Source: an uncultured Bryobacteraceae bacterium
GTDB taxonomy: Bacteria; Acidobacteriota; Terriglobia; Bryobacterales; Bryobacteraceae
Assembly: GCA_937924525.1 (NCBI GenBank)
Contig: CALDSU010000006.1
Coordinates: 25,350-89,349 of the forward strand
Length of the DNA stretch: 64,000 bases
Direction: 5' to 3'
Shown here in pieces: positions 25,073-27,326 of this stretch (positions are counted from its first letter, which is position 1; every line of letters starts with the position of its first letter). The position numbers were made by a program, and so were the translations under genes. The notes beneath the pieces were generated by a model, which ran no database searches, was not told where the DNA came from, and was given only the letters and a program-made list of their open reading frames with translations.

Positions 25073-25144
25073 CGGCAGGCCAGGCCGCGCGCGGCGGGCC
25101 CGTAGATGGAACCCGCCTTGCGAACCGGGTATGCTGAAAAAAAG

Positions 25145-26272
25145 ATGATGCAGGGCGCTCCAGCACGGCTGCTGGCACTGATCTGCGCGTTCACACTGGG
25201 GGCGGTGTTCGCCGACGCGAAAAAGAAGAAGAAAGGCGACGAGGAACCGGTCACCCAGACCCTCGAGGTGATCCCCGACCCGCCGCCGGTGATCACGGCG
25301 GAAACGCGGCGCCTCGCTTTTCACGTGACGCCCCTCAGCACCAAGGGTCTGCTTTCCCAGCAGACCAGGGATGCCGTCAAAGCTCTGATGCGCCAGGCGC
25401 GGGGGAGTCAGGTGGTTAAGGTCCGGGCATTTGTCGCGGGGAGCGCCGATTTGCGCCGGGTGCCGTCCATCGTCGCCGAGTTGTTCAGCGAGAAGCGGCA
25501 GCCGCTGCCCGTGGTGTCGGTGATTCAGGTCGGCGCCTTGCCGCTGGTCGGTGCGCAGGTGGTGCTGGAGGCGACCACCGTGGTAAACAAGGAGGTCAAC
25601 CCCTTCGGGTTGGCCTGGATTTCCGGGCAGGGCCAGACGGATGCCGATCCTCTGGCGAATGTGATGCCGCTGGCCGAGACCGCCTACGCGAACCTGCTGA
25701 AGGCGGTGACGGCGGTGGGAAGCGAACCTGCCGATGTGCTGCGCGTGACGTGCTTTCACAGCAATCTCGAGTCGGCGCGCGAGGCGCCGGCGCTTGCGTT
25801 CCGTTATTTCCCCAAGGCCGTGTTCCATCAGGTGCAGACGCAGCGCGCCCCGCATCGCGCGGTGGCCGAGTGCGAGGCCGTGGCCAGGCTCCGCAAACCG
25901 ACGGCGCCGCCCTATGAACTGGTGAACCCGGATACGCTGCGCAAGTCCCCCGCCTATTCGCAGATTGCGGCGGTGAGCTCGCCGAAGGTGATCTTCACGG
26001 GCACGCAGATGGAGTTCGGTTTTCGGGACGAGGACGCCAGACTCGCCTTCCAACGCATGGAACGGCTCCTGGCGGGCGCGGGCAGTTCGCTCAAGCACGT
26101 CGCGTTCTCCAGCGTGTATCCGCTGTCGCCGTCGCTGGCGGAACAGGTGCGGCGGATCCGCTTCGATTTCTTCGACCCGGCGCGGCCGCCGGCGTCCACC
26201 CTGCTAGTGTTCGAGGGGTTGCCGGCGATGGAGGCCGGTTTCGCGCTGGAAGTGGTGGCCGTCCCGCAGTGA
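25145..26272 (+). CDS. Exported protein with three tandem RidA/YjgF-like segments
   Basis: Signal peptide [25 protein letters not shown]; repeated RidA-like blocks ending ...[16 protein letters not shown], ...[15 protein letters not shown] and ...[16 protein letters not shown]. Confidence 0.7.
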
Positions 26273-26300: not shown

Positions 26301-27326
26301 ATGTTGACGGTGACGTTTGGCGAAATCATGCTGCGGCTGGCGCCGCCGGGTTTTGAGCGGTTCCTGCAATCTCCGATGTTCCTGGCGACGTTCGGCGGCG
26401 GCGAAGCGAACGTGGCCGTGGCGCTGGCCGGGTTCGGGCAGCCCGCGCGCTATGTGACGGTGCTGCCCGCCAATCCCATCGGCGACGCGGTGGTGGCCGA
26501 GTTGCGCCGGTTTGGCGTGGACACTTCCTGCATCGTGCGCGGCCAGGGCCGGATGGGCGTGTACTACGTCGAGCCCGGCGCCAACCAGCGACCCTCGAAG
26601 GTCGTCTACGACCGTGACTATTCGGCGATTGCTCTCGCCAAGCCGGGCGATCTCGACTGGAACCGCTGCTTTGACGGCGCCGGCTGGTTCCACGTCACCG
26701 GCATTACCCCCGCGATTTCCGCCTCGGCGGCGGACCTCGCCCTGGAGGCGGCTCAGACCGCCAAGGCCAAGGGCCTCACCGTTTCGTGCGACCTCAACTA
26801 CCGGAAAAACCTCTGGAAGTGGGGCAAGCCGGCGCACGAGGTGATGCGGGAACTGGTGCGGCACGTCGACGTGGCCATCGCCAACGAGGAAGACTGCCAG
26901 ATGGCGTTGGGCGTGAAGGCCGACATCGACGTCCACTCCGGCCAGCTCGACCGGGCCGAGTACCGCAAGCTCGCCGAGATGGTGTTGGCCGAGTTCGCCA
27001 ACTTGAAGAAGATCGCCATCACGCTGCGCGAATCCAAGAGCGCTTCGCACAACGGCTGGTCGGCGTGCCTGCATGACGGCCAGGAGTTCCGGCTGAGCCG
27101 GCACTACGAGATCACGCACATCGTCGACCGGGTGGGCGGCGGCGACTGCTTCGCGGGCGGGCTGATTTACGGCCTCCAGACGATGGATTCGGCGCAGGAC
27201 GCGCTTGAGTTCGCCGTGGCGGCGTCCTGTCTGAAGCACTCGATTCCCGGCGACTTCAACCGGTTCACCGCAGACGAAGTCCGCAGCCTCCTCAAGAGCG
27301 GCGGTTCGGGAAGGGTGCAGCGGTAG
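26301..27326 (+). CDS. PfkB-family sugar kinase, likely 2-dehydro-3-deoxygluconokinase
   Basis: [21 protein letters not shown]...[33 protein letters not shown] PfkB signature. Confidence 0.88.

Follow-up and report, generated by a model that had tools for sequence, protein, structure and literature searches.

The window, which is the whole 64,000-nucleotide stretch analysed here from contig CALDSU010000006.1 of an uncultured Bryobacteraceae bacterium, carries on its forward strand a gene for a 375-amino-acid protein, labelled RID3 in this analysis. The gene, the elements predicted in and before it, and its downstream neighbour are located as follows.

25145..26272, forward strand: RID3, a putative exported triple-Rid protein without the catalytic Arg, 375 aa
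25130..25140 (region 25130-25144), forward strand: putative degenerate -10-like box just 5' of the RID3 ATG, from comparison of upstream regions
25145..25219, forward strand: predicted signal peptide, residues 1-25, with predicted cleavage between ADA and K (sequence rule; helix at residues 7-22 in the model)
25220..25288, forward strand: disordered Lys-rich linker, residues 26-48, conserved in most orthologues and with low pLDDT over most of its length
25289..25585, forward strand: RidA fold 1, residues 49-147 (model, profile match, orthologue conservation)
25601..25891, forward strand: RidA fold 2, residues 153-249, SGQ motif retained (model, profile match, orthologue conservation)
25901..26266, forward strand: RidA fold 3, residues 253-374, PAST in place of PARS (model, profile match, orthologue conservation)
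26301..27326, forward strand: PfkB-family sugar kinase (KDG-kinase-like), 28 bp 3' of RID3

An alternative in-frame ATG at 25106 would give a protein of 388 aa. The start at 25145/25148 is favoured by the orthologues and by the promoter-like box at 25130-25140. A TGNTANAAT-like -10 box could be recognized approximately 12 nt before the ATG in most RID3 orthologues (upstream regions L076-L155), a spacing which suggests that the RID3 mRNA is leaderless or has a very short 5' leader. That RID3 is an artefact or a shadow ORF could be ruled out, as 34 further genomes of the family have orthologues with an open frame and no internal stops.

The original prediction had described this ORF as three successive RidA-like blocks in one chain, and the domain analysis bore out that description. 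The Pfam profile PF01042 matched RID3 in three stretches (E 2.8e-20; 73 bits against a cut-off of 27.3); with a score above the gathering threshold and a predicted RidA fold, the protein belongs to the RidA/YjgF (Rid) superfamily. Comparison of each third with RidA by profiles, a check proposed at the outset, gave a match for all three (P 1.5e-6, 1.8e-15, and 3.3e-6 for thirds 1, 2, and 3) when a 32-sequence alignment was used as the RidA profile. The AlphaFold2 model, built from a 36-sequence alignment, likewise returned the three RidA folds that had been expected of a structure prediction, with a mean pLDDT of 93.2 and a pTM of 0.87; the three blocks quoted initially are, in order, the C-terminal portions of the three domains. 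Three RidA-type domains in tandem in a single chain constitute the arrangement by which the 3x-RidA architecture is recognized. The NCBIfam RidA subfamily model TIGR00004 scored 38 bits, below its 106-bit cut-off, as expected for a divergent member of the RidA family. A recent internal duplication of one domain was rejected, the profile scores of domain 1 to 2, 1 to 3, and 2 to 3 being weaker than those to RidA. Because each domain is more like RidA than like the other two, the fusion must be old.

The equivalents of Arg105 were located by aligning each RID3 domain to E. coli RidA (NC_000913), in domain 3 through the match of PAST to PARS, and were V124 in domain 1, F227 in domain 2, and S351 in domain 3. 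Residue conservation was counted over 97 non-redundant RID3 orthologues, among which Arg occupied the catalytic position in 0, 2, and 1 sequences for domains 1, 2, and 3, respectively. Domain 1 had L, V, I, or F in this column, domain 2 was variable, and domain 3 mostly had S, G, or A. The loss of the catalytic Arg from all three blocks, judged by eye before, was confirmed by these counts. In the same 97 orthologues R94, D102, R104, and R105 were near-invariant in domain 1, C203, Q231, R234, C243, and E244 in domain 2, and Q288 and R304 in domain 3, the charged residues being gathered in particular motifs such as RAFVAGxGDxRRV. Of the three Glu120 equivalents, that of domain 2 alone was retained, with E in 68 of the 97 orthologues. 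Since R94, D102, R104, R105, C203, R234, and R304 are nearly invariant, RID3 is maintained under strong constraint. It lacks the catalytic Arg (Arg105 of E. coli RidA) by which the RidA/Rid1-3 imine deaminases are recognized, and it is probably not a classical deaminase. In RidA, the exchange of this Arg for Ala almost abolishes imine hydrolysis (PMC4433059), and the non-deaminase role that we infer for RID3 would be consistent with these published data.

The trimer of Arabidopsis RidA is held together in part by a salt bridge between Lys and Glu (K136-E182; PMC4960622). The acidic half of this bridge was kept in all RID3 domains (E142 in 99%, E244 in 97%, and E or D at 369 in 98% of orthologues), and the basic half in two of them (K at K92 in 88% and R at R200 in 89%). 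Because these interface residues are retained, a closed intramolecular pseudo-trimer is likely. Against the explanation favoured below, the full-length Foldseek matches of the model reached a TM of only about 0.25 with an rmsd of approximately 19–20 Angstrom, and a single domain superposed at a time; such a value could arise if the domains follow another order around the axis, or if the arrangement is not closed.

The top Foldseek match was to chorismatases (5a3k, 5ag3, and 4bps; E 4.5e-10 over approximately 390 columns), which like RID3 are RidA-related multi-domain chains. However, the TM was 0.25 with one superposed domain, the identity was 13%, and chorismatases were not among the RID3 matches in a profile search of PDB sequences. 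Cyanuric acid hydrolase and barbiturase, which share the Toblerone fold, also matched the model over its full length (E 2.2e-9), but with a TM of about 0.23, and no match of RID3 to these cyclic amide hydrolases was found in the sequence searches. Cyanuric acid hydrolase, whose structure has been solved, joins three YjgF-like units in one chain and has put them to another chemistry (PMC3758960). Its active site lies in the central barrel and is accompanied by a metal site, neither of which was identified in RID3; the Toblerone hydrolases are recognized by this metal site together with a Ser-Lys catalytic dyad.

The signal peptide was called by a rule requiring a hydrophobic core and an AxA-type signal peptidase I site. 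All 36 aligned family members had a hydrophobic N-terminal core, and 30 of the 36 had an A-x-A-type site after it, compared to 12 of 36 in a control stretch. The signal peptide claimed for the ORF was in this way supported across the family, and RID3 has the features from which Sec export is predicted, namely a putative signal peptide and, behind it, a predicted site for signal peptidase I. A lipoprotein reading based on Cys14 was rejected, because no lipobox is present and the orthologues do not share the Cys. A literature search on periplasmic RidA proteins gave no direct precedent among its top matches. The Lys-rich stretch that follows the hydrophobic segment directly is unusual for an exported protein and counts against export. 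According to the positive-inside rule, a Lys/Arg cluster behind a hydrophobic segment would favour a C-in topology, and such a cluster is present in most RID3 orthologues; the N-terminus could in that case be an uncleaved N-out/C-in anchor, holding the folds on the cytoplasmic side of the inner membrane, near PLP enzymes. This is considered quite improbable in view of the AxA-type sites in most family members, which often have a Q behind them, a feature shared with a further exported-looking Rid protein of the window's genome. Moreover, some orthologues have no Lys cluster behind the hydrophobic segment, and an acidic run after the cluster balances its charge.

RID3 orthologues were found in 35 of the 37 genomes of the window's family (Bryobacterales, Acidobacteriota). 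The best 80 named records with RID3 belonged to Bryobacterales/Solibacteraceae-type Acidobacteriota or to less precisely labelled Acidobacteria bins, with a few odd MAG labels among them. A phylum-wide draw of 297 genomes gave only partial or distant matches outside the window's family. Additional or truncated RID3 copies were seen at L056 and L052 (genome G024) and at L057 14816-15211 (genome G021); in G024 the two copies are divergent, and pdxR had no strong match there. The window's genome (G000) encodes a second triple-RidA at C1:422485-423522 (L211, L216, and L217), a 408-codon frame with a signal-peptide-like N-terminus and with Arg in all three domains (PARAL, PARAT, and PTRTT), while its canonical RidA is encoded on contig C8. 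Further single-domain Rid proteins of this genome (L209, L212, L213, and L214) were observed to have export-like N-termini, for example MRILSFALAAALLALPAFAQKK. Because several Rid N-termini of the genome are export-like, extracytoplasmic Rid proteins seem to be common in the lineage.

Both the 3x-RidA architecture, named in 2015 with EF_0115 as an example, and Rid4-7 proteins without the catalytic Arg are already known (PMC4433059), and the structure of one triple-YjgF chain, cyanuric acid hydrolase, is available (PMC3758960). RID3 shares with EF_0115 and the C1 paralogue three tandem RidA folds in a presumed covalently linked trimer, and with the paralogue the signal-peptide-like N-terminus too. 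It differs in that the paralogue keeps Arg in all three domains and RID3 in none, and in that RID3, with a subfamily score of 38 against 106 bits and without the Arg, falls outside the RidA subfamily expected of 3x-RidA domains, whose members mostly have the Arg. The nearest relatives outside the window's family were Arg-less triple-Rid proteins of approximately 400 aa from another Bryobacterales family (L058, L060, L061, and L062; E about 1e-15 to 1e-8). They resemble RID3 in their three PF01042 stretches, export-like N-termini, and replacement of the Arg in every domain examined (V/I, V/M, and A/S), but show just 24–32% identity to it over part of the chain. When the neighbours of these genes were checked, neither pdxR nor pfkB was found beside them. 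Rid4-7 have the RidA fold and no catalytic Arg, so that they presumably have another role than imine hydrolysis (PMC4433059), which is not expected of RID3 either. They are, however, single-domain proteins with Trp or a variable residue at the Arg position and the Glu kept, whereas RID3 is a triple chain with a predicted signal peptide and the Glu120 equivalent in domain 2 only. Since the 3x-RidA architecture has been published and Arg-less triple-Rid proteins occur in another Bryobacterales family, RID3 represents a diverged branch of an architecture already known and does not itself introduce a new one. What is new here is the predicted export together with the family-wide loss of the Arg from all three domains of a triple-Rid chain, and a conserved divergent pairing of RID3 with pdxR.

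RID3 was divergent from pdxR and located within 8 kb of it in 18 of the 37 genomes of the family, each from another genus; 14 of these were recognized by neighbourhood reading and four (G005, G006, G016, and G019) by coordinate comparison. Given the genome size, about 0.1 genome would be expected to show such proximity by chance. In the linked genomes RID3 and pdxR stand head to head, followed on the pdxR side by pdxS, pdxT, and a gene resembling low-molecular-weight phosphatases and arsenate reductases. The last gene was seen after pdxT in most of the operons, for example at L055 12493-12948. The regulator passed the NCBIfam PdxR cut-off (322 vs 320). Among the best 80 named records, the pairing was present at 23 of the 65 loci with at least 2.5 kb upstream, and the opposite pdxR-RID3 orientation was found at none of the 65 loci with enough flank. 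Bryobacterales bacterium F-183 (locus L150) is one relative in which the two genes are linked. The window's upstream genes glmU, glgC, eno, and gpmA stood beside no other RID3 copy, and the gene order around RID3 is therefore otherwise scrambled. A KDG-kinase-like PfkB gene lay closely downstream at 26 of 72 named loci. Behind the RID3-pfkB pair there was often a gene for an exported-looking protein with a VWA domain, and another conserved gene (L044 5058-7009 and equivalents).

The linkage to pdxR was scattered over the whole family tree, including deep branches, with 18 changes. This scatter fits a pairing that is probably ancestral and was repeatedly lost, the tree itself being compatible with gain as well as loss. 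It is absent from the window's genome, in which pdxR-pdxS lie on contig C13, unlinked from RID3. No RID3 remnant was found beside pdxR in the two genomes without RID3 (G034 and G036), and unlinked pdxR loci had various genes and no other constant divergent partner. A ACCATATTGG motif was present upstream of RID3 at 19 of 28 linked loci but at 2 of 52 unlinked loci, so this operator-like motif belongs to pdxR, not to RID3, and co-regulation of RID3 would be possible only where the two genes are linked. In the shared intergenic region ACCATATTGG was often followed by CCAAT (e.g., L076, L112, L141, and L145), as an inverted repeat in L141; this is a candidate PdxR site in Acidobacteriota. A motif scan found no operator-like site upstream of RID3 in the window and gave no support to trans-regulation by PdxR in the window's genome, which was rejected. 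With no motif and an unlinked pdxR, RID3 in the window lacks the shared operator of a PdxR regulon member.

In the cytosol, RidA proteins protect PLP enzymes. For RID3, we lean with slightly better than even confidence towards a 3x-Rid protein that is exported and asymmetric, lacks the Arg, has a reworked binding site, and possibly plays a part in B6 homeostasis. The protein would be exported by the Sec pathway, its mature part consisting of three RidA folds in one chain, which would most likely close in the envelope into an intramolecular pseudo-trimer, the counterpart of the RidA homotrimer. As a single chain is no longer symmetric, each of the three clefts between domains could evolve separately. 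All three have lost the Arg that grips the carboxylate, and classical 2-aminoacrylate deamination would for that reason not be expected; both the closed trimer and the lack of deaminase activity are inferred here. From the strong conservation of R94, D102, R104, and R105 together with C203, Q231, R234, C243, and E244, a single reworked site may be placed around domains 1 and 2, where a small metabolite of anionic or carbonyl type would be bound, and possibly transformed, outside the cytoplasm. The head-to-head order with pdxR-pdxS-pdxT, probably the ancestral state, points to a possible connection of the ligand, or of a stress, with vitamin B6 (PLP) homeostasis. Ligand and B6 link are both speculative, the lead to B6 coming from gene order only, in a pairing that the window's genome lacks. 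A fuller version, in which this family-specific Bryobacterales envelope protein is a fused RidA trimer without the deaminase Arg, serves as an extracytoplasmic component of B6 homeostasis, binds or transforms a B6 vitamer or a PLP-damaging carbonyl or amine, and was once controlled together with pdxST by a divergent PdxR, is regarded as unlikely.

Whether the pairing carries any functional meaning bears on the B6 part alone. That it is merely inherited gene order has a chance not far short of even, as linkage was lost many times, in the window's genome too, without loss of either gene. Since the linkage was lost in half of the genera, divergent control by pdxR is not essential for RID3. On the other side, the divergent pair persisted in 18 of 37 genomes while other neighbours were scrambled between genera, and MocR regulators are usually divergently paired with their targets (PMC5320631). 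A survey of MocR regulons elsewhere placed RidA-family members in five regulogs, which gives the association a precedent (PMC5320631).

The function itself could be read differently. If another Arg (R94, R104, R105, or R234) gripped the carboxylate, one envelope cleft might still act as an imine or enamine deaminase, and near-invariant Args are indeed available, domain 2 keeps SGQ and in most orthologues the Glu120 equivalent, and the exported-looking, Arg-bearing 3x-RidA of the same genome makes it seem that extracytoplasmic deamination is used in the lineage. However, the RidA residue to which R234 corresponds in the alignment is the VARLP Arg and not Arg105, and the near inactivity of the RidA Arg-to-Ala variant (PMC4433059) further makes this reading improbable. 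RID3 might instead be a structural, scaffold, or chaperone-like envelope protein without a small-molecule site, whose Lys-rich linker binds anionic envelope polymers. N-chlorinated E. coli RidA acts as a chaperone (PMC4284807), and both the conserved linker and the clefts without the catalytic Arg would suit such a role, in which conservation would reflect the packing of a single-chain barrel and a partner-binding surface. Near-invariant charges clustered in motifs (RAFVAGxGDxRRV) are, however, more typical of a specific site than of packing, and the pdxR and sugar kinase neighbours point to metabolism; this structural reading is held to be rather unlikely.

With the exported, Arg-less 3x-Rid reading, RID3 would show how a symmetric trimer can fuse and evolve an asymmetric site, an idea already put forward for cyanuric acid hydrolase. 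The role of RID3 becomes testable through the pdxR divergon and the constraint seen across the family, and its long-lived pairing with a regulator of PLP synthesis offers a testable lead to the role of an Arg-less Rid protein, which may be relevant to Rid4-7 too.
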